Source: Verrucomicrobiaceae bacterium
GTDB lineage: Bacteria > Verrucomicrobiota > Verrucomicrobiia > Chthoniobacterales > JAATET01
Assembly (NCBI GenBank): GCA_027488755.1
Contig: JAIYAZ010000098.1
Coordinates: 1-39,339 of the forward strand
Direction of reading: 5' to 3'
Length of the DNA stretch: 39,339 bases
Made by a program: the position numbers and the translations under genes. The notes below the pieces were generated by a model, which searched no databases, was not told where the DNA came from, and was given only the letters and a program-made list of their open reading frames with translations. This document shows positions 9,307 through 22,842 of this stretch, one piece after another (positions within the stretch are counted from its first letter, which is position 1; each line of letters begins with the position of its first letter).

Positions 9307-10890
9307 ATGAACTTCCGAACAATCCCACTCCGCATCAAGGTCGCCCTGATGCTCGGGGGCGGGATGCTTCTCGCGCTCGTCGCGACCCTCTTCACGCTCT
9401 TCGTCGTGATGCAGGGCGACTTCGACCGCATGGCCCGCGCCCTGGCGGAACAACGCGTGCAGCGCGCCGCTCATTTTCTCATCCTCCGCGCCCAGGCCCT
9501 TCGCACCAGCGTCGCCGACAACGCCATCTGGGACGAAACCTACCGCTTCGCCACCCATCCCTCCGCCGACTACCTCGAGAAAAACTACTACAACGACCCC
9601 ACCCTCGCGGAACCCTACGACTTCGTTCTCGCCTACGGAGCCGACGGCCGCTTCCTCGGCGGCATCACCCACCACGCCACCAGCTTCGATCCCGCCCCGC
9701 CCGCCGGACTCGACCCCGCCGTCATCGCCCGCTCCCCGCTCCTGCGCGCCCCCGACGGCCGCTACGCCCTCCTCCACCTCGGCTCGCAGGCGGCCATCCT
9801 CGCCTCCCACGACATTCTCCCCACCAGCGGCGAAGGCAGCCCCGCGGGCACCCTCGTCTACGGCACCTTCCTTTCGCCCGCCCTCATCGAGGAACTCCGC
9901 GCCACCACCGGCGTCACCCTCGCCGCCACCGCCACCCCGCCGCCCGCCGACCCAAGCGCCAAAACCCAGCCCCTCCCGGGCAACCTCGGGGCCTTCTCCG
10001 TCCGCATGGTCGGGAACTGGACCGACCCCGCCGGCCCCGAGGCCTGGCTCATCACCACCGGCCTCGATCAACAACCCCTCTACCTCCGCCTCCGGTTCGA
10101 ACCCGCCTACTTCGCCGACATCGTCCGCCGCCCCTACCTTATCGTCGGCACCCTCGCGGCCGGCGGCTTCCTGCTCGTGGCCGGCGCCCTCCTGCTGCTC
10201 GAAGTCAACGTCCTCCGCGCCATCGCCTCGCTCGACCGCCAGATGGCCGCCGTCGCGCAGGATCCCCAAAACGCCGGCATCCAGCTCGAAGGCAGCCAGG
10301 AATTCGCCCGCCTCGCCGCCTCCGCCAACCGCATGGTCGAGGCCCTGCGCGAACAGCAGGGCGCCCTCGCCGCCGAACGCCGCCTCCTCCACAGCGTGTT
10401 CGACGCCGCCGCCGAGGGCCTCCTCGCCTTTCGCGCCGAGCGCGACCCCCAGGGAACCATCACCGATTTCGTCATCGAACGCGCCAACCCCGCCGGCTGC
10501 CACCTCCTCGGCATCACCCCCGAAACCTCCATCGGCTGGTCCCTCCGCGCCTCCCTGGCCCGCGTCGGCGGCGACGACATCCTCTGGCAGGCCTTCTGCC
10601 GCACCGCCAACGACGGCCAGCCCCAGCACCTCGTCCGCCCCGGCCCCCTCTCCCACTCCCGCTGGCACGACAGCCAGCTCGCCCCCTGGGGCGACGGCGT
10701 CGTCATGTGCCTCTCCGACGTCACCCCCCAGCGCGAATCCGAGCAGCAACTCCGCGCCAGCCTCAACGAAATCGAACGCTTCAACCGCTCCATGCTCGGC
10801 CGCGAGGAACGCATCCTCGAACTCAAACGCGAGGTGAACCTCATTCTCACCGCCACCGGTCAACCGTCCCGCTACCACTCCGACCCGTGA
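9307..10890 (+). CDS. CHASE4-HAMP-PAS membrane sensor without a kinase domain
   Basis: A 527-residue transmembrane sensor. TM1 is about residues 13-35. The periplasmic region to about 270 has the CHASE4 hallmark DNAIWDETYRF at 71-81. TM2 is about 275-298 (LIVGTLAAGGFLLVAGALLLL). A HAMP-like linker follows, then a PAS domain (about 360-480) and a C-terminal coiled coil ending in ELKREVNLILTATGQPSRY, a tail usually followed by a kinase in other sensors. There is no histidine kinase, GGDEF or EAL domain. The stop overlaps the GTG of the next gene, a soluble hybrid kinase, by 4 bases. I infer that the two form a split receptor-kinase. Confidence 0.85.
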   Translation: MNFRTIPLRIKVALMLGGGMLLALVATLFTLFVVMQGDFDRMARALAEQRVQRAAHFLILRAQALRTSVADNAIWDETYRFATHPSADYLEKNYYNDPTLAEPYDFVLAYGADGRFLGGITHHATSFDPAPPAGLDPAVIARSPLLRAPDGRYALLHLGSQAAILASHDILPTSGEGSPAGTLVYGTFLSPALIEELRATTGVTLAATATPPPADPSAKTQPLPGNLGAFSVRMVGNWTDPAGPEAWLITTGLDQQPLYLRLRFEPAYFADIVRRPYLIVGTLAAGGFLLVAGALLLLEVNVLRAIASLDRQMAAVAQDPQNAGIQLEGSQEFARLAASANRMVEALREQQGALAAERRLLHSVFDAAAEGLLAFRAERDPQGTITDFVIERANPAGCHLLGITPETSIGWSLRASLARVGGDDILWQAFCRTANDGQPQHLVRPGPLSHSRWHDSQLAPWGDGVVMCLSDVTPQRESEQQLRASLNEIERFNRSMLGREERILELKREVNLILTATGQPSRYHSDP

Positions 10891-12674
10891 TCCCCGGCGC
10901 CCCCAACTCCAGCCCGGACGCCGCCCGCCTGCTCGCCGTCCTCGCCGACGCCCTCGAGGTTCTCCTCCGCACCAACGAACTCCACGGCAACATCCAGCGC
11001 GCCCTCGCCATGGTCGGCGAACACGCCAACGCCGACCGCTCCTACTTCTTCACCGGCGTCGGCCCCCAGGGCGACCTCAGCCGCATCAGCCAGAAAATCG
11101 AATGGGTCCGCCCCGGCGTCATCCCCCAGATCGACAACCTCGACTACCAGAACTACCCCCTTGCGGAAAAAATCCCCCGCTGGTTCGACGAACTCTCCCG
11201 CGGCCGCCCCCTCTTCGGCCACACCGCCGACTTCCATCCCGACGAACGCCCCCTCCTCGAGGAACAGCAAATCCGCTCCATCGTCATGGTGCCGATCATG
11301 CAAAACCACGCCGCCCGCGGCTTCATCGGCTTCGACGCCTGCACCCGCGACCGGGAATGGACCGCCACCGACATCGCGGTCCTCCGCGCCCTCGCCGCCG
11401 GCATCGGCGGCGCCCTCGAACGCCACACCGTCGAAACCTCCCTCTCCGACTACGCCAGCGACCTCCTCCGCAGCCGCCGGGTCGCCCTCAGCCTCATGGA
11501 GGACGCCCAGATCGCGCAAAAGCGAGCCGACGCCGCCAACCAGGAAAAATCCCGCTTCCTCGCCGTCATGAGCCACGAGATGCGCACCCCGCTAAACGGC
11601 ATCCTCGGCTTCGCCGAGCTCATCGCCAGCGAAGCCACCGGCCCCATCCGCGAACACGCCGGCACCATCCAGGCCAGCGGCCACCTCCTCCTCAGCCTCA
11701 TCTCCGACCTCCTCGACTTTTCCAAGATCGAAGCCGGCCGCCTCGAACTCGCCCCCACCGATGGCCGCCTCCGCGATCACGTCGAACGCGTCCTCGCCAT
11801 CTTCACCCCCGCCTGCCGCAACCGCGGCATCCAGCTTCGGTTGGAATTCGACCCCACCCTCCCCACCTTCGCCCGCACCGACTTCCTCCGCTACGAACAG
11901 GTCCTCCTCAACCTCGTCGGCAACGCGGTCAAATTCACCACCACCGGCGGCATCACCGTCCGCCTCCGCCCCGCCCGCCCCGACGCCAGCCCCGACATCA
12001 TCCTCACCGAAATCGAGGACACCGGCATCGGCATCGCGCCCGAAGCCTTCAACCGCATCTTCGAGCCCTTCTCCCAGGCCCACAGCCGCGTCCACCAGGA
12101 ATTCGGCGGCACCGGCCTCGGCCTCGCGATCTGCAAACGCCTCGTCAACCTCCTCGGCGGCGACCTCTCCGTCGAAAGCGAACCCGGCCGCGGCTCCACC
12201 TTCCGTTTCACCCTCCCGCTCGGCCGCGCCACCTCGCCCGCCCCCGCCCTCAGTCCCGCGCCCGCCGACGCCACCCCCACCCCGCCGCCCGACGCCCGCT
12301 CCCTCCGCGTCCTCATCGTCGACGACGTCGCCACCAACCGCGAACTCGCCGCCACCCTCCTCCGCCGCATGGGCGCCGAGGTCTGGCTCGCCCCCGACGG
12401 CCCCACCGCCCTCCGCCTCACCCGCGAAACCACCCCCCACCTCGTGCTCATGGACGTCCTCATGCCCGAGATGGACGGCACCGAAGCCGCCCGCGCCATC
12501 CGCGCCGAGCACCCCGACATCCCCCGCATCGCCGCCCTCTCCGCCGACGCCACCGCCGAAAACGAGGAACGCTGCCGCCTCGCCGGCATGGAGTTTTTCC
12601 TCACCAAACCCATCAACCGCCGCGCCCTCGAGCACGTCGTCCGCACCGTCCTCGAACCCCGCCCGCCCGCCTGA
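10887..12674 (+). CDS. GAF-domain hybrid histidine kinase with C-terminal receiver
   Basis: A 595-residue soluble hybrid kinase. An N-terminal GAF domain (about 20-180) is followed by a coiled coil. The dimerisation/phosphoacceptor box MSHEMRTPLNGILGFAEL has H230, the N box is NLVGNAVKFT, and the G boxes are DTGIGI and GGTGLGLAI. A Pro/Ala linker leads to a receiver domain with RVLIVDD and phospho-acceptor D523 in LVLMDVLMPEMDG. No membrane segments are visible. The GTG start at 10887 overlaps the stop of the CHASE4 sensor (GTGA), indicating translational coupling. No separate output response regulator follows, so the final target (an Hpt protein or another regulator) is outside the window. 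Confidence 0.92.
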   Translation: MIPGAPNSSPDAARLLAVLADALEVLLRTNELHGNIQRALAMVGEHANADRSYFFTGVGPQGDLSRISQKIEWVRPGVIPQIDNLDYQNYPLAEKIPRWFDELSRGRPLFGHTADFHPDERPLLEEQQIRSIVMVPIMQNHAARGFIGFDACTRDREWTATDIAVLRALAAGIGGALERHTVETSLSDYASDLLRSRRVALSLMEDAQIAQKRADAANQEKSRFLAVMSHEMRTPLNGILGFAELIASEATGPIREHAGTIQASGHLLLSLISDLLDFSKIEAGRLELAPTDGRLRDHVERVLAIFTPACRNRGIQLRLEFDPTLPTFARTDFLRYEQVLLNLVGNAVKFTTTGGITVRLRPARPDASPDIILTEIEDTGIGIAPEAFNRIFEPFSQAHSRVHQEFGGTGLGLAICKRLVNLLGGDLSVESEPGRGSTFRFTLPLGRATSPAPALSPAPADATPTPPPDARSLRVLIVDDVATNRELAATLLRRMGAEVWLAPDGPTALRLTRETTPHLVLMDVLMPEMDGTEAARAIRAEHPDIPRIAALSADATAENEERCRLAGMEFFLTKPINRRALEHVVRTVLEPRPPA

Positions 12675-12708
12675 TCCCCGCGCCGGGAAAATGCCCCCAA
12701 ATCAGGGC

Positions 12709-12736
12709 TTGCATCCCGCCGCAATCCGGCCATGAT
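12709..12736 (+). promoter_or_regulatory. Predicted promoter of rplS
   Basis: TTGCAT (12709-12714) and CATGAT (12731-12736) are 16 bases apart, about 24 bases before the rplS start and after the end of the kinase gene. The -10 matches four of six consensus bases. Assignment is by eye. Confidence 0.35.
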
Positions 12737-12759
12737 CTCCAATCCAACTTTTTACGGCC

Positions 12760-13110
12760 ATGAGCTTGATCGCCACCATCGAAAACGAACAACTAAAGAA
12801 AGACGTCGCGAGCTTCGCGGTGGGCGATACCGTCAAGGTTCACACCCGCGTCATTGAAGGCGACAAGGAGCGCATCCAGATCTTCACCGGCATCGTCATC
12901 GGCCGCAAGGGCGCCGGCATCAACGCGAACTTCACCGTACGCCGCATCAGCTCGGGCGTTGGCGTCGAACGCGTCTTCCCGCTTCACTCCCCGCGCATCG
13001 CCAAGATCGAAGTCGAGCGCAAGGGCTCCATCCGCCGCGCCAAACTCAATTACCTCCGCGACCGCAAGGGCAAGTCCGCCACCACGGTCAAGGAAAAGGT
13101 CGAGGCCTAA
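12760..13110 (+). CDS. rplS: 50S ribosomal protein L19
   Basis: A 116-residue L19, a large-subunit protein at the 30S-50S interface. The family core is clear: [33 protein letters not shown], then [20 protein letters not shown] and [22 protein letters not shown]. The start follows a T/A-rich stretch with no Shine-Dalgarno. rnhB and yraN follow, the conserved rplS-rnhB-yraN order. An intrinsic terminator-like hairpin directly after the stop suggests that part of the transcription ends before rnhB. Confidence 0.98.
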
Positions 13111-13148
13111 AAACCCGCCGGCCTTCCCGGCCCCCCTCTTCGCTCGAG

Positions 13149-13185
13149 ACGCTGAAATTTCGCGATTTCAGCGTTTCGTCGTTTT
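13149..13185 (+). terminator. Intrinsic terminator after rplS
   Basis: ACGCTGAAAT (13149-13158) pairs perfectly with ATTTCAGCGT (13165-13174) around a 6-base loop, followed by TTCGTCGTTTT. It lies in the 84-base gap between rplS and rnhB. The T-tract is interrupted, so partial read-through into rnhB is likely. Confidence 0.6.
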
Positions 13186-13194
13186 CCGCCCCCC

Positions 13195-13812
13195 ATGCCC
13201 TGCACGTTTGACGCCGAACGCCGCCTGCAGGCCGCCGGGCAAACCCCCGTCGCCGGCATCGACGAAGCCGGCCGCGGCCCGCTCGCCGGCCCCGTCGTCG
13301 CCGCCGCCGTCATCCTCCCCGCCGACTACCCCGCCGAAGGCCTCGACGACTCCAAGCGCCTCACCGCCGCCGCCCGCGACCGCCACTACGCCCGCCTTAC
13401 GCGCGACGCCTCCGTCGTTTGGGCCGTCGCCGTCCTCGAAGCCCCGGAAATCGACCGCCTCAACATCCTGCGCGCCACCCACGAAGCCATGCGCCGCGCC
13501 GTCCTCGGCCTCCGCGTCCCCGCCCGCCACGCCCTCATCGACGGCCTGCCCGTCCACCCCTTCCCCCTCCCCCAGACCGCCCTCGTCGGCGGCGACGCCC
13601 TTTCCCTCAGCATCGCCGCCGCCAGCGTCATCGCCAAGGTCACCCGCGACCGCCTCATGGCCGCCCACGACCGCGCCTGGCCCGCCTACGGCTTCGCGCA
13701 ACACAAGGGCTATGCAACCGCCGCGCATCTGGCTAGCCTCCGCGCGCATGGGCCCTGCCCGATCCATCGCCGCAGCTTTTCACCGGTTGCGCAACTGGCT
13801 TTCCCGCTCTAA
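13195..13812 (+). CDS. rnhB: Ribonuclease HII
   Basis: A 205-residue RNase HII, which cleaves 5' of ribonucleotides embedded in DNA and removes RNA from RNA-DNA hybrids. The active-site motif GIDEAGRGPLAGPVVAAAV carries D23 and E24. Further landmarks are LDDSKRLT, HALIDGLPV (third acidic residue), GGDALSLSIAAASVIAKVTRDRLM and YGFAQHKGYAT. The C-terminal 65 bases overlap the start of yraN in a different frame. Confidence 0.95.
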   Translation: MPCTFDAERRLQAAGQTPVAGIDEAGRGPLAGPVVAAAVILPADYPAEGLDDSKRLTAAARDRHYARLTRDASVVWAVAVLEAPEIDRLNILRATHEAMRRAVLGLRVPARHALIDGLPVHPFPLPQTALVGGDALSLSIAAASVIAKVTRDRLMAAHDRAWPAYGFAQHKGYATAAHLASLRAHGPCPIHRRSFSPVAQLAFPL

Positions 13813-14203
13813 CTCCCGCGGCGAATCGCCCCACCTCGCCCTCGGCCGCCGCGGCGAACGCCTCGCCGCCCGCCACCTCCGCCACCTCGGCTACAAGGTC
13901 CTCTACCGCAACTTCCGCCGCGGCAAGGGCGGCGAAATCGACCTCGTCTGCCGCCACGGCGACACCCTCGTTTTTGTCGAAGTCAAAACCCGCTCCGACG
14001 AAACCTTCGGCCGCCCCTCCGCCGCCGTCGACCGCCGCAAACGCGAGCGCCTCATCCGCGGCGCGATGACCTGGCTCCGCCTCCTCAACCTCCCCGACAT
14101 CTCCTTCCGCTTCGACATCGTCGAGGTCGTCACCCGCACCGAACCGCCCGAAATCCGCGTCCTCGAAAACGCCTTCCCCCTCCCCGGCCGGTATATTTAC
14201 TAG
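13748..14203 (+). CDS. yraN: YraN family (UPF0102) nuclease-fold protein
   Basis: A 151-residue UPF0102 protein with a restriction-endonuclease-like fold. The family core runs from LGRRGERLAARHLRHLGYK through GGEIDLVCRHGDTLVFVEVKTR, where Asp in GEIDLV and Glu/Lys in VEVK form the PD-(D/E)XK-type site. The ATG at 13748 is the only ATG before the core; the first ~30 residues (Arg/Ser-rich) overlap rnhB and are not conserved, so true translation may begin later at a non-ATG codon. Activity of YraN proteins is unproven, although a DNA-processing role is suspected from the fold. Confidence 0.88.
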   Translation: MGPARSIAAAFHRLRNWLSRSNSRGESPHLALGRRGERLAARHLRHLGYKVLYRNFRRGKGGEIDLVCRHGDTLVFVEVKTRSDETFGRPSAAVDRRKRERLIRGAMTWLRLLNLPDISFRFDIVEVVTRTEPPEIRVLENAFPLPGRYIY

Positions 14204-14221
14204 CTGCGCCGCAGCCGGGCT

Positions 14222-14250
14222 TTGACCCGAATAACGATTTCCCTTATCGC
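14222..14250 (+). promoter_or_regulatory. Possible promoter of the Rrf2 regulator gene
   Basis: TTGACC (14222-14227) and TATCGC (14245-14250) are 17 bases apart. The predicted start falls at or within a base or two of the ATG at 14257, implying a leaderless or very short leader. ATAA/TTAT half-sites flank the spacer (14231-14247), a possible autoregulatory dyad. Confidence 0.25.
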
Positions 14251-14256
14251 TGGGGG

Positions 14257-14721
14257 ATGCAGCTCTCCATGCGCACCGATTACGCGTTGCGCGCCCTCTT
14301 CACCCTCGTCGAACACCACGGCGGCCAGCCCATCCCCATCGCGGAACTCGCCCGTCGCAACGACGTCCCCAAGCGCTTCCTCGAGCACATCATGCTCGAC
14401 CTCAAGGAACGCGGTTGGGTCTCCAGCGTCGCCGGCAAACGCGGCGGCTACCTCCTCGCCCGCAACCCCGAGCGCATCACCATGGGCGAAGTCGTCCGCC
14501 ACTTCGACGGCTACCTCGCCCCCCTCGCCTGCGTCTCCGTCACCGACTACAAACGCTGCTCCCAGGAACCCGTCTGCCGCTTCCGCCGCGTCATGCTCGA
14601 GTCCCGCAACCTCGTCGCCCGCCTCATGGACCGCACCACCCTCGCCGACGTCATGCGCGGCCTCCCCGTCACCGACCGCGAGATCGCCAACACCATCGGC
14701 CTCGACGGCGAAGGCATCTGA
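14257..14721 (+). CDS. Rrf2 family transcriptional regulator with three cysteines
   Basis: A 154-residue Rrf2 regulator. The N-terminal winged helix begins MQLSMRTDYALRALFTLVEH, and the recognition region and wing include KRFLEHIMLDLKERGWV and GKRGGYLLARNPERITMGEVV. Cysteines C92, C101 and C107 give a C-X8-C-X5-C spacing, comparable with the C-X5-C-X5-C cluster ligands of IscR and the related pattern in NsrR, so an Fe-S cofactor is plausible. CymR, the Rrf2 regulator of cysteine synthesis in Bacillus, lacks such ligands. It lies directly upstream of the sulfate-binding protein, cysK and cysTWA, which it probably controls. Start ATG 14257 fits family N-termini; GGGGG precedes it. Confidence 0.9.
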   Translation: MQLSMRTDYALRALFTLVEHHGGQPIPIAELARRNDVPKRFLEHIMLDLKERGWVSSVAGKRGGYLLARNPERITMGEVVRHFDGYLAPLACVSVTDYKRCSQEPVCRFRRVMLESRNLVARLMDRTTLADVMRGLPVTDREIANTIGLDGEGI

Positions 14722-14789
14722 TTTCCCCCGCCAAATCACCCGCCCAACCCCGCTATGACGCAAACAACGACTGCTTGAATCGTTTTTTG

Positions 14790-14851: not shown

Positions 14852-15850
14852 ATGAAAATCCTCACCCTCGCCGGCCTCGCCCTCGCCGCCCTCGCCGGTT
14901 CGGCGCTCGCCGCCCCCACTATTCTCAACGTCTCCTACGACCCCACCCGCGAGCTTTACGCGGACTTCGACGCCGTCTTCGCCAAGCACTGGAAGGAAAA
15001 AACCGGGCAGGACCTCAAGATCGACCAATCCCACGGCGGCTCCGGCAAACAGGCCCGCTCCGTCATCGACGGCCTCGAAGCCGACGTCGTCACCCTCGCG
15101 CTCGCCTACGATATCGACTCCATCGCCCAAAAGGCGAAGCTCCTCCCCGAGGACTGGCAGAAACGCCTCCCCAACAACAGCTCCCCCTACACCTCGACGA
15201 TCGTCTTCCTCGTCCGCAAGGGCAACCCCAAGGGCATCCAGGATTGGCCCGATCTCCTCAAGACCGGTGTCGAGGTCATCACCCCGAACCCCCGCACCTC
15301 CGGCGGCGCCCGCTGGAACTACCTCGCCGCCTGGGCCGATGCCCTCAAGCGCAACGGCGGCGACGAGGCCAAGGCCCGCGAATTCGTCACCGAGCTCTTC
15401 AAGCACGTCCCCGTGCTCGACTCCGGCGCCCGCGGCTCCACCGTGACCTTCACCGAACGCGGCATCGGCGACGTCCTCCTCGCCTGGGAAAACGAAGCCT
15501 ACCTCGCCCTCCAGCAAAAACCCGACCAGTTCGAAATCATCACCCCCAAGGTCAGCATCCTCGCCGAGCCGCCCGTCGCCGTCGTCGACAAGATCGTGGA
15601 CCGCAAGGGCACGCGCGAAGTCGCCACCGCCTACCTCGAATACCTCTACACCCCCGAGGGCCAGGACATCGTCGCCAAACATTTCTACCGCCCCACCGAC
15701 CCCACCGTGAAAGCGAAATACGCCGACAAGTTCCCCGCCCTCGAGCTCGTCACCATCGACGACACCTTCGGCGGCTGGGCCAACGCGCAGAAGGTTCACT
15801 TCGAAAACGGCGGCATCTTCGACCAGATCTACCAGCCCCAGGCCCGCTAA
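14852..15850 (+). CDS. sbp: Sulfate/thiosulfate ABC transporter substrate-binding protein (first copy)
   Basis: A 332-residue periplasmic sulfate-binding protein. The signal peptide is [20 protein letters not shown], with cleavage before [16 protein letters not shown]. Family features include the [28 protein letters not shown] oxyanion-binding region, [34 protein letters not shown] and [15 protein letters not shown] at the end. It delivers sulfate or thiosulfate to CysT/CysW/CysA, encoded 3 kb downstream. A paralogue lies after cysK (16934-17938), and the two share long stretches even at the DNA level, so they arose by duplication. Confidence 0.94.
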
Positions 15851-15881: not shown

Positions 15882-16856
15882 ATGTCCTTCTACGACAACG
15901 TCGTTGCCAGCGTTGGCAAAACCCCGCTCATCCGCCTCAACCGCATCGCCGCCGGCCTCCCCGCGACCATCGCCATCAAGGGCGAATTCGCCAACCCGCT
16001 CGGCAGCGTGAAAGACCGCATCGGCGCCGCCATGATCGCCGCCGCCGAGGCCGACGGCCGCCTCACCCCCGGCACCACGATCATCGAGCCCACCTCCGGC
16101 AACACCGGCATCGCCCTCGCCTTCGTCGCCGCCGCCAAGGGCTACAAACTCATCCTCACCATGCCCGAGAGCATGAGCATCGAGCGCCGCACGCTCCTCG
16201 CCCTGCTCGGCGCCCAACTCGTCCTCACCCCCGCCGCCGAGGGCATGCGCGGCGCCATCGCCCGCGCCGAACAGCTCCACGCCGAGACCGAAAACTCCTG
16301 GATCCCCCAGCAGTTCAACAACCCGGCGAACCCCGAGATCCACCGCCGCACCACCGCCGAGGAAATCTGGGCCGACACCGACGGCCAGGTCGACGTCCTC
16401 GTCTCCGCCGTCGGCACCGGCGGCACCATCACCGGCGTCGCCGAAGTCCTCAAAACCCGCAAGCCCGGCTTCCTGGCCATCGCCGTCGAGCCGAAGGACT
16501 CCCCCGTCATCACGCAGACCCGCAACGGCGAGCCCCTCAAACCCGGCCCCCACAAAATCCAGGGCACCGGCGCCGGCTTCGTCCCCGGCAACCTCAACGT
16601 CGCCCTCCTCGACGAAGTCATCACCGTCAGCAACGAGGACGCCATCGAGACCGCCCGCCGCCTCGCCCTCGAGGAAGGCATCCTCGCCGGCATCTCCAGC
16701 GGAGCCAACGTCTGGGCCGCCCTCCAGGTTGCCCGCCGGCCCGAGTTTGCCGGCAAACTCATCGTCACTATTGGCTGTAGCACCGGCGAGCGCTACCTCA
16801 GCACCGCCCTCGCCGAAAAGGCCAAGGCCGACCTCCTCGCCGAACAGCCCGCTTAA
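15882..16856 (+). CDS. cysK: Cysteine synthase A (O-acetylserine sulfhydrylase)
   Basis: A 324-residue PLP enzyme making cysteine from O-acetylserine and sulfide. It shows the start [21 protein letters not shown], the PLP lysine in [15 protein letters not shown], the substrate loop [13 protein letters not shown], the phosphate-binding GTGGTITG and the C-terminal GISSGAN segment. It is placed between two sulfate-binding protein genes, 31 bases after the first. A strong intrinsic terminator follows it. Confidence 0.96.
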
Positions 16857-16893
16857 AACCACCCACCGCCCGCGTTCCACCTTCCACGCCACA

Positions 16894-16924
16894 GACCCGG
16901 GCCCCCAAAAGGCCCGGGTCTTTT
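16894..16924 (+). terminator. Strong intrinsic terminator after cysK, ending just before the second sbp
   Basis: GACCCGGGCC (16894-16903) pairs perfectly with GGCCCGGGTC (16911-16920) across the loop CCCAAAA, followed by TTTT. The T-tract ends 9 bases before the ATG of the second sulfate-binding protein. This is a textbook Rho-independent terminator in an unusual position inside an otherwise co-directional gene block. Confidence 0.85.
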
Positions 16925-16933
16925 CCTGTCCCC

Positions 16934-17938
16934 ATGAAATTTTTCGCCCTTCTTCTTCTCTTTCTCCTTGCCCTCCTCCCCGGGACCGGCCGCTCCGCCG
17001 ACGCGCCCACCCGCATCCTCAACGTCTCCTACGACGTCACCCGCGAGTTTTATCAGGACTACAACGCCGCCTTCCAACGCCACTGGCAGACCGAGCACCC
17101 CGAAGCCAAACTCGAAATCGAGCAATCCCACGCCGGCTCCAGCAAACAGGCCCGCGCCGTCATCGACGGACTCCCCGCCGACGTCGTCACCATGAACCAG
17201 GACACCGACATCCAGCTCCTCGCCGACGCCGGACTCGTCGCCCCCGACTGGCGCACCCGCCTCCCCGACCACGCCGCCCCCTCCACCACCACCATCGTCT
17301 TCCTCGTCCGCAAGGGAAACCCCAAGGGCATCCGCGACTGGCCCGACCTCCTCAAACCCGGCGTCGAACCCATCATCCCCAACCCAAAAACCTCCGGCAA
17401 CGGCCGCTACTCCTACCTCGCCGCCTGGGCCTACGCCCAGACCCGCCCCGGCGGCTCCCCCGAAAAAGCCCGCGCCTTCGTCGGCGACCTCTTCCGCCGC
17501 GTCACCGTCCTCCCCTCCGGCGGCCGCGACGCCACCAACACCTTCGTCCAGCGCGGCATTGGCGACGTCCTCCTCACCTTCGAAAGCGAGACCCTCCAGA
17601 TCACCCGCGTCTTCAGCCCCGACGCCTACGACGTCGTCACCCCCTCCGCCAGCATCCTCGCCGCCGCCCCCGTCAGCGTCGTCGACAAAGTCGTCGACCA
17701 GCGCGGCACCCGCGCCCTCGCCACCGCCTACCTCACCCACCTCTGGTCCGACGAAGGCCAGAAAATCGCCGCCCGCCACTACTTCCGCCCCCGCTCGGCC
17801 GCCATCCTCGCCGAAAACGCCGCCCTCTTCCCTCCCCTCGAACTCCTCACCATCGACGCCGTTTTCGGCGGCTGGGCCAACGCCCAGAAACACTTCTCCG
17901 CCGGCGGCGAATTCGACGCCATCTTCGCCCGCCGCTAA
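16934..17938 (+). CDS. sbp: Sulfate/thiosulfate ABC transporter substrate-binding protein (second copy)
   Basis: A 334-residue paralogue of the first binding protein. The signal peptide is MKFFALLLLFLLALLPGTGRS, followed by ADAPTRILNVSYDVTREFY. It keeps [58 protein letters not shown] and [14 protein letters not shown]. Differences near the binding pocket (MNQDTDIQL for [16 protein letters not shown] for GGARWNY) suggest an altered ligand or affinity. No ribosome-binding site is visible, and a strong terminator ends 9 bases upstream. The M14-type hydrolase begins 7 bases after its stop. Confidence 0.92.
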   Translation: MKFFALLLLFLLALLPGTGRSADAPTRILNVSYDVTREFYQDYNAAFQRHWQTEHPEAKLEIEQSHAGSSKQARAVIDGLPADVVTMNQDTDIQLLADAGLVAPDWRTRLPDHAAPSTTTIVFLVRKGNPKGIRDWPDLLKPGVEPIIPNPKTSGNGRYSYLAAWAYAQTRPGGSPEKARAFVGDLFRRVTVLPSGGRDATNTFVQRGIGDVLLTFESETLQITRVFSPDAYDVVTPSASILAAAPVSVVDKVVDQRGTRALATAYLTHLWSDEGQKIAARHYFRPRSAAILAENAALFPPLELLTIDAVFGGWANAQKHFSAGGEFDAIFARR

Positions 17939-17945
17939 ACCCGCC

Positions 17946-18785
17946 ATGCCTCCCGCCGTGACCCCGAAACGCCTGCGCGAACGCCGCAACCTCCGCACGC
18001 TCCTCCGCCCCCTCGAGGAACTCGCCCGCGGCTCCCAGCACCTCTTCACCGCCCACCTCGAGCTCACCGACCCCACCGCCACCGGCGCCATCGGCCCCTA
18101 CCCCCACCAACGCATCACCCTGCCCCGCTTCCTCTTCGCCGGCCCCGGCTCCGGCGGCGCCAGCTTTCTCCGGCTCGGCATCTTCGGCGGCCTCCACGGC
18201 GACGAGGAAGCCACCGTCCTTGGCGCCCTCGCCTTCCTCGAAAAACTCCACGCCCAGCCCGAAATCGCCCGCGGCTACGAGCTCTTCGTCTACCCCGTCG
18301 GCAACCCCACCGGCTTCGCCGACGACACCCGCTGGTCCCGCTCCGGCGTCGACCTCAACCGCCAGTTCTGGCGCGACTCCGCGGAACCCGAGATCGTCCT
18401 GCTCGAACGCCAGCTCGTGAACCTCGCCTTCGACGGCATCATCGCCCTCCACGCCGACGACACCAGCCCCGGCCTCTACGGATTCGTCAAGGGCCACGCC
18501 CTCACCCGCCACGTCCTCGAGCCCGCCCTCACCCGCGCCTCCACCGTGCTCCCGCGCAACTTCGACCGCAGCATCGACAACTTCGAGGCCAACGCCGGCA
18601 TCATCGAAGCCGGCTACCCCGGCGTCCTCAGCGCCCCGCCCGCCCAGCACCCCCGCCCGCTCGAAATCGTCTTCGAAACCCCCGCCCTCGCCCCCCTCGA
18701 CCAACAGATCGAAGCCCACACCCTCGCCCTCGAAGAAATTCTGCTTCGCTTCCGCGCCGTGATTTCCGAAGGTCAATCGATCTAG
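17946..18785 (+). CDS. M14-type zinc hydrolase (succinylglutamate desuccinylase/aspartoacylase or carboxypeptidase-like)
   Basis: A 279-residue protein with M14 metallocarboxypeptidase-superfamily hallmarks. The zinc pair H84 and E87 lies in GGLHGDEEA, the third ligand H169 in IIALHADD, the substrate-binding N138-R139 in VDLNRQF, and a probable catalytic E242 in VFETPA. Members cleave C-terminal amino acids from peptides or deacylate N-acyl amino acids; the sequence does not settle which. There is no signal peptide, so it is probably cytoplasmic. It sits with 7-base gaps between the second sulfate-binding protein and cysT, so it is co-expressed with sulfate uptake, which is not a standard component of that system. 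A role in releasing sulfur amino acids from conjugates is only a hypothesis. Confidence 0.8.
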   Translation: MPPAVTPKRLRERRNLRTLLRPLEELARGSQHLFTAHLELTDPTATGAIGPYPHQRITLPRFLFAGPGSGGASFLRLGIFGGLHGDEEATVLGALAFLEKLHAQPEIARGYELFVYPVGNPTGFADDTRWSRSGVDLNRQFWRDSAEPEIVLLERQLVNLAFDGIIALHADDTSPGLYGFVKGHALTRHVLEPALTRASTVLPRNFDRSIDNFEANAGIIEAGYPGVLSAPPAQHPRPLEIVFETPALAPLDQQIEAHTLALEEILLRFRAVISEGQSI

Positions 18786-18792
18786 TCGTCCC

Positions 18793-19704
18793 GTGAAGCG
18801 CCACACCCTGCCCGGCTTTGGAATCACGCTCGGATACACCCTCGTGTATCTCACCCTCATCGTGCTCATCCCCCTCGCCGCGCTCTTCCTCAAAACCCAG
18901 TCCGGCGGCTGGCATCACTTCTGGGAAACCATCACCTCCCCCCAGGTCGTCGCCTCCTACAAGGTCAGCTTTGGCATCTCCTTCCTCGCCGCCGCCGTCA
19001 ACGGCGTCCTCGGCGTCCTCGCCGCCTGGGTCCTCGTCCGCTACCGCTTCCCGGGCCGTCGCCTCCTCGACGCCATGGTCGACCTGCCCTTCGCCCTCCC
19101 CACGGCCGTCGCCGGCATCGCCCTCACCACCCTCTTCGCGCCGAACGAATGGATCGGCCAGTTCTTCGCCTACACCCAGCCCCTCGGCGCCTGGGCCAGC
19201 CCCCAAAGCCCCACCGGCGCCTGGCTCGCCACGCAGGACTGGGCCCGCCCCTACCTCGGCCCCACCGGCATCCGCATCGCTTACACCCAGATCGGCATCT
19301 TCATCGCCCTCACCTTCATCGGCCTGCCCTTCGTCGTCCGCACCGTCCAACCCGTCATCCAGGACCTCTCCCTCGACGTCGAGGAAGCCGCCGCCTGCCT
19401 CGGGGCCAGCCGCTGGCAAACCTTCACCCGCGTCGTCCTCCCCGGCCTCCTCCCCGCCATCTTCACCGGCGTCACCCTCGCCTACGGCCGCGCCGTCGGC
19501 GAATACGGCTCCGTCGTCTTCATCTCCGGCAATCTGCCATTCCAAACGCAGATCACCCCCATGCTCATCATCTCCAAACTCGAGGACTACGACTACACCG
19601 GCGCCGCCGGCCTCGGCTTCGTCATGCTCCTCGCCTCCTTTGCCATCCTCCTCGTCAGCAATTTCCTGCAGGCCTGGAACAACCGCCGCAACGGCGTCGC
19701 GTAA
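18793..19704 (+). CDS. cysT: Sulfate ABC transporter permease CysT
   Basis: A 303-residue inner-membrane permease with about six helices. The sulfate-permease signature is clear: LPTAVAGIALTTLF, and the ATPase-coupling loop EEAAACLGASRWQTFTRVVL, then GRAVGEYGSVVFISGNLPF. It forms the channel with CysW. It starts at GTG 18793, 7 bases after the M14-type gene. cysW begins at the base after its stop codon, so the two are translationally linked. Confidence 0.95.
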   Translation: MKRHTLPGFGITLGYTLVYLTLIVLIPLAALFLKTQSGGWHHFWETITSPQVVASYKVSFGISFLAAAVNGVLGVLAAWVLVRYRFPGRRLLDAMVDLPFALPTAVAGIALTTLFAPNEWIGQFFAYTQPLGAWASPQSPTGAWLATQDWARPYLGPTGIRIAYTQIGIFIALTFIGLPFVVRTVQPVIQDLSLDVEEAAACLGASRWQTFTRVVLPGLLPAIFTGVTLAYGRAVGEYGSVVFISGNLPFQTQITPMLIISKLEDYDYTGAAGLGFVMLLASFAILLVSNFLQAWNNRRNGVA

Positions 19705-20595
19705 ATGGCCGGCTCCGCCTCCAGTTTTCCCGTCCGCGCCCGCGTCGACGCCCCCGCCGCCGCCACCAGCGACCCGCTCTTCGTGCGCGTCCTCCTCATC
19801 AGCATCGTCTTCGTCGTCTTCACGATATTCTTCGTCCTGCCCCTCGTCGTCGTGCTCAAGGAAGCCTTCTCCAAGGGCCTGCCCGCGTTCCTCATGGTCT
19901 TTCAGGACAGCGCGACCGCCCACGCCGTCCAGCTCACCCTCCTCACCGCCGCCATCGTCGTCCCGCTCAACACGATCTTCGGCCTCGCCGCCGCCTGGGC
20001 CGTCACCCGCTTCCACTTCCCCGGCCGGCCCTTCCTCATCAGCCTCATCGACCTCCCGCTCTGGGTCTCCCCCGTCGTCGGCGGTTTGATCTACGTCCTC
20101 GTCTTCGGCGCCCAGGGCTGGTTCGGCCCCTGGCTCCTCGAAAACAACATCCGCGTCATCTTCGCCGTCCCCGGCATCGTCCTCGCCACCACCTTCGTCA
20201 CCTTCCCCTTCGTCGCCCGCGGCCTCATCCCGCTCATGCAGGCCCAGGGATCCAAGGAGGAGGAGGCCGCCCTCAGCCTCGGCGCGAACGGCTGGCAGAT
20301 CTTCTGGCGCATCACCCTGCCCAAAATCAAATGGGGCCTCTTCTACGGCATCATCCTCTGCAACGCCCGCGCCATGGGCGAATTCGGCGCCGTCTCCGTC
20401 GTCTCCGGCCACATCCGCGGCAAGACCAACACGATGCCCCTCCACATCGAAATCCTCTACCAGGAATACCAATTCTCCGCCGCCTTCGCCGTCGCCTTCG
20501 TCCTCTGCGTGCTCGCCATCGTCACCCTCGTCATCAAAACCTACGCCGAATGGCGCGCCGAACAGCAGCTCGCCGAAGCCGCCCGCAGCCACTAA
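19705..20595 (+). CDS. cysW: Sulfate ABC transporter permease CysW
   Basis: A 296-residue partner permease of CysT. The N-terminus is a short Ala/Pro cytoplasmic stretch, followed by about six helices. The family motifs [29 protein letters not shown], the coupling loop [21 protein letters not shown] and [23 protein letters not shown] are all present. The ATG immediately follows the cysT stop. cysA follows after 37 bases that include a short CTCCCA-type repeat (20611-20629). Confidence 0.95.
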
Positions 20596-20632: not shown

Positions 20633-21379
20633 GTGAGCATCGAAGTCCGCGCCATCACCAAGAAATTCTCCCGCTATCCCGCGCTGGATTCCGTGAGCCT
20701 CAAGGTCGAGACCGGTGAACTCGTCGCCCTCCTCGGCCCCAGCGGCTCGGGCAAAACCACCCTGCTCCGCATCATCGCCGGCCTCGAGTTTCCCGACGAC
20801 GCCAACAGCCGCGTCCTCTTCGACGGCACCGACGTCACCCAACTCTCCGCCTACCGTCGCCACGCCGGCTTCGTCTTCCAGCACTACGCCCTCTTCGGGC
20901 ACATGAACGTCTTCGACAACGTCGCCTTCGGCCTCCGCGTCAAAAAACGCGGCCACCGCCCCGCCGCCGCCGACATCGACCGCCGCGTCCGCGAACTCCT
21001 CGAAGCCGTCCAGCTCGCCGGCTACGAAAAACGCCTCCCCAGCCAGCTCTCCGGCGGTCAACGCCAGCGCGTCGCCTTCGCCCGCGCCCTCGCCGTCGAA
21101 CCCCAGGTCCTCCTTCTCGACGAACCCTTCGGCGCCCTCGACGCCAAGGTCCGCAAGGAACTCCGCCGCTGGCTCCGCGAATTTCAGGACCGCATCAAAC
21201 TCACCACCATCTTCGTCACCCACGACCAGGACGAAGCCTTCGAAGTCGCCGACCGCGTCGTCCTCATCGACAAGGGCATCCTCCAGCAGGTCGGCAGCCC
21301 CGCCGAAGTCCGCGCCCACCCCGCCAACCGCTTCGTCGCCGAGTTCCTCGACCTCCCCCTCCCCACCCCCGCAAGCTGA
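20633..21379 (+). CDS. cysA: Sulfate ABC transporter ATP-binding protein CysA (short form)
   Basis: A 248-residue ATPase driving sulfate import. Walker A GPSGSGKT lies at 35-42, the Q-loop in [10 protein letters not shown], the signature LSGGQRQRV and Walker [13 protein letters not shown] follow, with the H-loop [15 protein letters not shown]. It ends right after the core ([13 protein letters not shown]). CysA proteins are usually about 340-360 residues with a C-terminal TOBE-like regulatory domain, so about 100 residues are absent here. No frameshift remnant is seen beyond the stop, only a simple repeat and the convergent porin gene. The start is GTG 20633. Confidence 0.93.
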
Positions 21380-21426: not shown

Positions 21427-22842
21427 TCAAAAGTTCACCTCCATGTGGAGGCCGAAGATGTTCGCATTGCCGATCACGCCCGTGCCGCTCGGGCGAATGA
21501 TGTATTGCCAGAACGGCTGCACGCTCGCGAACTTCGTGAGCTGCACGCGGTAGTCCGCCTCGATAACGCCCTCGTAGGTCTGCCGCACCATCTTGCCCGC
21601 CTCCTCCTCGGCGTTGATCTTGTTGATGCTGTAGTTGCCCAGGCCAAAGGCCACGCCGAGCTGGTCATTGTCCCGCGTCGGAATCAGCCCCTTGTAGACC
21701 AGGCCGGTGTGAAAATAGAACGGCATCGCGTTGTCGTAGGCCGGCGCAAGGTTGAAAAAGCTGAACGCGTAAAGCCCCTGCTCATTCCGCTTCTCCGGGG
21801 CCGCCGTCGAAACCGGCGCCTGGAAATTCTTGCCGTCCCCCGCCCCCTTCGCGAGCGGCGCCGGCTGCTCCTTCGCCGCCGTCGGCTCGCGGAAAAGCAT
21901 CTGGTCCGCCTGCGCGTAAACGTCGACCTTCTGGTCGTAGGTCTCGCCGTAGAACGACTTGTTCTCCAGCCCCCAGTAGATCATGCCCACCGCGAATTTA
22001 CCCGGCAGCTTCGCCGGACCGATCTTCGGCGTCACGCCCGTCTCGCCAAGGAAATACAGGCCGTTCGCCTCGGGATCGGGGCCGTATCCGGCCAGGTCGA
22101 GGCCGTGGTTGAACCGCACCGTCGCCTCGGGGATGGCCATGTAGAGGCCCGCCATCGCGTAATGCCAGTCCACCGGCTTCACCTTCACGTAGCCGCCCCA
22201 CGCCGCATAGCTGCTGCTCCACGGAAACCCGTTCACCCCGCCGATGCCCTTGGTCGTGCCGATCGCGTTGTTCGTAAACAGCTTCGAATCCGGCTGGTCG
22301 GCAAAAAACTCGTAGGGATTCTGCCAGCCGCCCGAAATCGTCAGCAGGTTCTTCACGCCCAGCAGCTCCGGCGTGACGTAGGTCAAATAGAACGGCATCA
22401 GCCGCCAGCCCTGGCCGCTCTGGTAGCGCGACGGTTGGAAGGTCGTCGAGGCGCCCACGTAATAGTTCGGATTGCGCCCGTCCCGGTAGCGCACCGCGCC
22501 CTGCGCCGTCAGCCCCTCAATGCCCGCCAACTTCTCGAAGTCGAGCTTGATGCCAAGCGTGATCTCCTCGTCAAACGCCCCGTGCGGCGCGTCCAAACCT
22601 CCGCCGGTCAAACCGTAGAAATTCGCCTTCCACACTCCGTAGGGCGCGATCCCGCGGTCCTCCAGCGTGGTCCGCAGCCCGAACCAGTCGCCCGACGCAT
22701 ACTTGCCGCCAAGCCAGTTTTCGATGAGGCCGGTGTTCGCCGCCGGCGCCGGAGTCGCCGGGCCGGCAAGGGTGACCGAAACCAGCGTGAGCGTCGCGGC
22801 CAGCCCAAGCAGAGAGGCCCGGGAAAGGATGGATGTTTTCAT
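21427..22842 (-). CDS. Carbohydrate porin, OprB family
   Basis: A 471-residue outer-membrane porin. The signal peptide is MKTSILSRASLLGLAATLTL through VTLAGPA. The OprB signature follows (GDWFGLRTTLEDRGI, then APYGVWKANFYGLTGGG), with repeated aromatic beta-strand patterns and a final C-terminal Phe (HMEVNF) expected for BAM-dependent insertion. OprB porins pass sugars, and some relatives pass other small solutes. It stands alone between pnp and the convergent sulfate operon. The start ATG is preceded by a small dyad (GGATC ... GATCC) and a short leader reading frame with a strong ribosome-binding site. Confidence 0.9.
   Translation of the reverse strand: MKTSILSRASLLGLAATLTLVSVTLAGPATPAPAANTGLIENWLGGKYASGDWFGLRTTLEDRGIAPYGVWKANFYGLTGGGLDAPHGAFDEEITLGIKLDFEKLAGIEGLTAQGAVRYRDGRNPNYYVGASTTFQPSRYQSGQGWRLMPFYLTYVTPELLGVKNLLTISGGWQNPYEFFADQPDSKLFTNNAIGTTKGIGGVNGFPWSSSYAAWGGYVKVKPVDWHYAMAGLYMAIPEATVRFNHGLDLAGYGPDPEANGLYFLGETGVTPKIGPAKLPGKFAVGMIYWGLENKSFYGETYDQKVDVYAQADQMLFREPTAAKEQPAPLAKGAGDGKNFQAPVSTAAPEKRNEQGLYAFSFFNLAPAYDNAMPFYFHTGLVYKGLIPTRDNDQLGVAFGLGNYSINKINAEEEAGKMVRQTYEGVIEADYRVQLTKFASVQPFWQYIIRPSGTGVIGNANIFGLHMEVNF

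Follow-up and report, generated by a model that had tools for sequence, protein, structure and literature searches.

A predicted M14-type zinc amidohydrolase encoded within a sulfur operon of Verrucomicrobiae

The window, i.e. the whole stretch of 39,339 nucleotides of Verrucomicrobiaceae DNA that was analysed, contains an operon-like run of genes in the order rrf2, sbp1, cysK, sbp2, M14 gene, cysT, cysW and cysA (Table 1). The M14 open reading frame starts with ATG and encodes 279 amino acids. Assuming this ATG start and the GTG start of cysT, it is separated from both neighbouring genes by gaps of exactly 7 bases (17938/17946 towards sbp2 and 18785/18793 towards cysT), as had been claimed in an earlier note on this DNA. 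The binding protein, CysT, CysW, CysA and cysteine synthase are common to this run and the enterobacterial cysPTWAM cluster, whereas the latter lacks an M14 enzyme and is controlled by CysB with N-acetylserine as inducer, and the verrucomicrobial operon has an Rrf2 regulator.

Between cysK and sbp2 there is a strong GC-rich hairpin with a T-rich tail, so that expression of the distal genes may be partly separate. Comparable hairpins are found at the equivalent place in two relatives (L053 and L055); the number of hairpins with a T-rich tail in the window region was not above that in shuffled sequences. Rfam revealed no riboswitch in the window, its sole match being a tRNA at the window edge, and a search of the window for sigma-70 promoters found none. 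Long open frames in L125 and in the window, considered as gene fusions that might name a partner, looked on inspection like out-of-frame artefacts of high-GC DNA and were discarded.

Table 1. Positions of the operon features in the window and of the catalytically dead M14 paralogues in other loci (locus handle before the colon)
Feature	Position	Strand	Basis or remark
Candidate Rrf2 operator copy AACGATTTCCCTTATCGCT	14233..14251	.	1 mismatch to AACGAY-N7-RTCGTT; 5 bases before rrf2 start
Rrf2-family regulator, 154 aa	14257..14721	+	Pfam Rrf2 3.3e-35
Candidate operator AACGACTGCTTGAATCGTT, upstream of sbp1	14766..14784	.	Genus-conserved; perfect AACGAY-N7-RTCGTT match
Sulfate-binding protein 1 (sbp1)	14852..15850	+	TIGR00971 488.5 bits, cut-off 155.5
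Cysteine synthase CysK	15882..16856	+	TIGR01139 444.9 bits, cut-off 351
GC-rich hairpin and T-rich tail, possible terminator/attenuator	16893..16921	+	
Sulfate-binding protein 2 (sbp2)	16934..17938	+	TIGR00971 398.6 bits
Predicted M14/AstE-AspA-type zinc amidohydrolase	17946..18785	+	ORF, Pfam, alignment, AlphaFold model, structural match
Sulfate permease CysT	18793..19704	+	TIGR02139 398.4 bits, cut-off 246.1
Sulfate permease CysW	19705..20595	+	TIGR02140 384 bits, cut-off 329.1
Sulfate transporter ATPase CysA	20633..21379	+	TIGR00968 347.7 bits, cut-off 342.75
M14b dead paralogue	L112:5073-5879		
M14b dead paralogue	L120:6131-6940		
M14b dead paralogue	L204:5195-5941		
M14b dead paralogue	L123:7865-8641	-	
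M14b dead paralogue	L131:8832-9578	-	
M14b dead paralogue	L088:7822-8580	-	
M14b dead paralogue	L151:7064-7807	-	
M14b dead paralogue	L205:7572-8348	-	
M14c dead paralogue	L074:7988-8794		
M14c dead paralogue	L201:5437-6369		
M14c dead paralogue	L198:5715-6533	-	
M14c dead paralogue	L199:5723-6541	-	
M14c dead paralogue	L200:5670-6638	-	

Features of the M14 protein

An alignment of 56 relatives has H84, G85, D86, E87 and H169 in every sequence, together with R129, N138 and E244, the last a candidate for the catalytic base; R139 is nearly invariant, and N120, Y178 and D211 do not vary either. The AlphaFold model (pLDDT 92.9) has its top structural match in the Shewanella metallopeptidase 2qvp (Z 26.1, rmsd 2.7 Å over 237 residues). 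Both the fold match and the invariant ligands uphold the earlier assignment as an M14-superfamily protein with intact zinc ligands H84, E87 and H169; judged from model and alignment, the window protein is an M14-superfamily enzyme with a complete predicted catalytic set. Structural comparison, which had been proposed in the same note, gave Z scores from 26 to 23, with 2qvp, 3b2y and 3ieh from Shewanella followed by carboxypeptidases (A and B at about 23). EutE/DoeB of ectoine utilization, an N-acetyl-diaminobutyrate deacetylase, is also among the matches.

The Pfam model AstE_AspA_cat (PF24827), whose family comprises zinc amidohydrolases acting on N-acyl amino acids and includes EutE/DoeB, is passed with 30.1 bits (gathering cut-off 25), although the match is limited to the catalytic core (residues 77–182) and no arginine- or ectoine-utilization genes were recognised beside the M14 gene. 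For Peptidase_M14 (PF00246) the window protein scores 16.1 bits, below the gathering value of 21.6, and relatives reach 22–25. As inspection of the N-terminus reveals no evident signal sequence, the protein is probably cytosolic. Within the genus the gene is under purifying selection (dN 0.11–0.12, dS 0.49–0.58).

Among annotated families, NF052223, that of the Shewanella N-acetylornithine deacetylase, is the nearest (2.7e-12). The verrucomicrobial protein shares with SO_3749/NF052223 and with 2qvp, 3b2y and 3ieh the fold, a similar length and, in the alignment, the HGxE, NPTGF, R and NR, HxD and ETP motifs. However, identity is about 25%, DLNR stands in place of xPNR, the LHxDDT motif differs, and the verrucomicrobial gene lies in a sulfur operon in contrast to the arginine role of the Shewanella type. 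This kinship could nevertheless mean that the protein is an N-acetylornithine deacetylase of arginine synthesis which sits in the sulfate operon by chance. We consider this very improbable and have rejected it. The NF052223 score is 46.5 bits against an equivalog cut-off of 400, and arginine synthesis needs no M14 enzyme here because the window genome has ArgJ (381 bits, curated cut-off 298). ArgJ matches are found in 89 of 93 sampled genomes of the class, with or without M14, and the M14 gene is linked to sulfur genes across 23 family groups.

Distribution, sulfur linkage and control

Relatives of the M14 protein were found in 122 of the 384 genomes sampled across the class. The search beyond the class comprised a phylum-wide sample of 288 genomes, in which all 19 matches fell inside the own class, and one close-relative scan of GTDB contigs; no plasmid-borne copies were found. 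For the analysis of the neighbourhoods, 80 loci from the better-scoring, hence not random, matches were combined with the window, and sulfur genes were located in these 81 loci by tblastn, a neighbour being a gene within 4 kb on the same strand. A sulfate-binding protein gene and cysT/cysW both adjoin the M14 gene in 50 loci, cysT only in two, a sulfate-binding protein gene only in 10 (some with cysK), a sulfonate transporter in three, cysK or cystathionine-synthase-like genes in three and an Rrf2 regulator only in another three. Ten loci, seven of them from family f39, have no recognised sulfur neighbour. Linkage to sulfur genes or Rrf2 is thus seen in 71 of the 81 loci and, as it extends over 23 of 24 family-level groups, is not the property of a single clade. 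The gene cysK lies near the M14 gene in 27 loci and that of the serine acetyltransferase EpsC in four, EpsC joining the M14 cluster in one family.

The earlier note had made its reading depend on the conservation of the sbp-M14-cysT order in relatives and had regarded the M14 gene as part of the sulfate operon. Both views withstood the analysis, the neighbours having been verified as Sbp, CysK, CysT, CysW and CysA: the M14 gene is a member of the sulfur operon, and its setting is conserved among relatives and no local accident. Both M14 and CysT occur in 98 genomes, M14 only in 24, CysT only in 61 and neither in 201 (odds ratio 13; Fisher p 2e-26 for 384 genomes, a value that overstates independence since the genomes are related). 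Being absent from 61 of the 159 CysT-bearing genomes, the gene is not essential to the pathway. In 20 loci with CysT but no M14 match over the threshold, the sbp-cysT-cysW-cysA order is mostly kept and the gap mostly holds no recognised gene; in one of them, L151, a dead M14 paralogue occupies it.

Further genes recur in these loci. A cysteine desulfurase, a rhodanese and EpsC lie upstream of rrf2-sbp-M14-cysTWA in L113 and L118 (about 9500–14500); the same cluster in L117 (about 9500–14500) has the rhodanese and EpsC, the desulfurase not being seen there. This desulfurase resembles family 2A encapsulin cargo, in L118 scoring just below the cut-off of the model. In L117 (9013-9327, minus strand) and L118, a small lipoprotein-like gene without a Pfam match is flanked by rrf2 and sbp; in L110 it precedes sbp. 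A small DUF2292 protein is encoded in L098 (10278-10481, minus strand), L128 (6631-6810), L106 (7714-7968) and about 15 other sulfur loci, often near Rrf2.

Mycobacterial Mec+ is a precedent for a metallopeptidase in cysteine synthesis, and an M14 enzyme might likewise release cysteine built on a sulfur-carrier protein of the CysO/ThiS type. However, no conserved small protein with a Gly-Gly end recurs near the M14 gene, the recurring one being DUF2292, and we rejected this route as scarcely credible.

With regard to control, inverted repeats like AACGAC-N7-GTCGTT are conserved in the genus upstream of sbp1. With up to one mismatch, this repeat is present in 12 of the 15 loci whose Rrf2 is of the window type (0.4 expected from shuffles), in one of 23 with another Rrf2 type (0.2 expected) and in four of the 42 where an Rrf2 gene was not seen (1.2 expected). 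This co-occurrence suggests that the repeat is the operator of the Rrf2 regulator. The M14 gene of L064, one of the copies lacking a recognised sulfur neighbour, is preceded by a site 89 bases from its start, and L106 has two sites, with one and two mismatches, between rrf2 and M14. If two mismatches are allowed, the operator pattern yields 75 sites where 51 are expected, which is too noisy to be used alone. The window genome holds two perfect AACGAY-N7-RTCGTT matches, one of them the site before sbp1. Allowing one mismatch yields 14 sites in this genome versus 6 for the reversed control, so that single weak sites prove little. As the repeat marks operons with the window-type Rrf2 and also precedes the unlinked L064 copy, these patterns in the DNA lend support to a control shared by M14 and sulfate uptake, as the earlier note had supposed.

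The three cysteines of the regulator (Cys-X8-Cys-X5-Cys) are conserved in 38 of 39 relatives and could hint at a sensor with an Fe-S cluster instead of one like CymR. A perfect AACGAC-N7-GTCGTT at L055:14194 also directly precedes an OprB-type porin gene, which suggests that the porin adjoining the operon in the window (21427-22842) may share the regulon.

Catalytically dead paralogues

Some loci encode a second, M14-like protein that has kept neither the zinc ligands nor the NR clamp nor the base. One group, M14b, occurs in nine genomes of family f24, and its usual place is between sbp and either the active M14 gene or cysT. Another, M14c, comprises five genomes of family f37; it is in tandem with the active gene in L074 and without recognised sulfur neighbours in the other four. 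These paralogues were aligned with a profile, and none of those tested had a Pfam match. An M14 fold for M14b is backed by a profile comparison (99.7%) and by a model of moderate quality (pLDDT 70, best Z 14.5). With a dN/dS of about 0.1–0.2 between pairs, the M14c copies are not genes in decay. On the tree, the loss of catalysis requires at least three separate changes, the long branches making the placements unsure.

Among bacterial M16B peptidases, an inactive partner is encoded together with its counterpart in a two-gene operon (PMC11266112), which suggests by analogy that dead M14b and active M14 may form a heteromer. That dead paralogues are retained under purifying selection, several of them at the same operon position, and that two M14b genomes have only the dead copy and no active M14 gene, would also suit a protein that is mainly a regulatory or scaffold subunit of the transporter or of CysK, with hydrolysis being secondary and the dead copies doing likewise without chemistry. 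In the main family, however, the full catalytic set is intact throughout some 80 copies; a scaffold would have no need of it, and we regard such a role as improbable.

The window genome itself has a dead, very divergent M14 paralogue (G000:C107; L167 about 1200–1991) that adjoins an esterase and an RND transporter and is remote from any recognised sulfur gene. Further single M14 copies in which catalytic residues have been lost are found in L208 (5402-6337, minus strand), L209 (5597-6484), L202 (5461-6318) and L203 (1317-2234), those of L208 and L209 near Rrf2 and cysK genes and that of L203 near an Rrf2 gene.

Proposed function and substrate

An argE deletion of E. coli is complemented by SO_3749 of Shewanella (PMC3219624), the closest relative that has been put to an experimental test. 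This places N-acetyl-amino-acid deacetylases in this branch of M14 and makes N-acyl-amino-acid hydrolysis the best guess. Since the gene moves among sulfate, sulfonate and cysK settings, its substrate probably lies downstream of uptake, and the common feature of these settings is the serine – O-acetylserine – cysteine node. We therefore propose, with roughly even chances of being right, that the M14 protein is a cytosolic zinc-dependent N-acyl-amino-acid amidohydrolase of the sulfur/cysteine regulon of Verrucomicrobiae which acts on an N-acyl derivative of a serine- or cysteine-type amino acid. Water would be activated by the zinc held by H84, E87 and H169, R129 and N138/R139 would grip the amino-acid moiety by its free carboxylate and also hold the reacting carbonyl, and E244 would serve as general base, so that the N-acyl bond, most likely N-acetyl, of a small amino acid would be cut. 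Against a deacylase speak the fact that M14 active sites also fit peptides and the identity of only about 25% to the characterised Shewanella type.

O-acetylserine is the product of CysE, and N-acetylserine can, to our knowledge, not be used by CysK. The former is converted spontaneously into the latter (PMC13256707, PMC8137854), and hydrolysis of N-acetylserine would return serine and acetate to the pathway as a form of metabolite repair. No dedicated enzyme that recycles N-acetylserine was named in the open-access literature searched, nor did we find an enzyme of this type in a sulfate operon named there. An EpsC-type gene is present elsewhere in the window genome, next to a cysteine desulfurase. 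The likeliest substrates are N-acetyl-L-serine, which taken alone is only a tentative choice, and, as the main alternative, N-acetyl-L-cysteine, from which cysteine would be freed and which is slightly less probable on its own.

The association of M14 with cysK, serine acetyltransferase and the regulator, and likewise with transporters, fits recycling or repair of an intermediate of the pathway and an alternative sulfur source, the option raised in the earlier note, equally well. A scavenging peptidase or deacylase might indeed free cysteine or methionine from short peptides, gamma-glutamyl compounds or mercapturate-like conjugates, and the place of the gene in the sulfur regulon as well as the M14 fold with its R/NR carboxylate clamp, typical of carboxypeptidases, are consistent with this. 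Bacillus recovers cysteine by means of the N-acetylcysteine deacetylases ScmP, YhaA and YtnL (PMC12757645), possible functional analogues in that deacylation is tied to cysteine recovery, although they belong to family M20 instead of M14. However, no ScmL/ScmK-like pair of partner acetyltransferase and monooxygenase was recognised near M14 in a census that named clusters present in at least three loci, and no importer of peptides or conjugates recurs beside the gene, the recurring transporters being those for sulfate and sulfonates. Scavenging is thus possible, yet on the unlikely side.

Turning back to the deacylase, its boldest version, which we regard as quite speculative, is that cysteine synthesis in Verrucomicrobiae has an undescribed repair step in which it is dedicated to hydrolysing N-acetylserine and is governed by an Rrf2 regulator that has an operator to itself, some lineages adding a dead M14 partner encoded just upstream in the manner of M16B heterodimers. 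More generally, the sequences make it appear that many Verrucomicrobia make cysteine with an undescribed extra step, in which an acyl moiety, likely acetyl, would probably be taken off a serine- or cysteine-like amino acid by a small zinc enzyme. Its conservation and apparent co-regulation within the sulfur regulon of a large class make this deacylase a concrete candidate for N-acetylserine recycling; if it instead frees cysteine from conjugates, it would show the use of organic sulfur by these bacteria. Either answer would give a function to a family that is now modelled only as a generic desuccinylase or carboxypeptidase.
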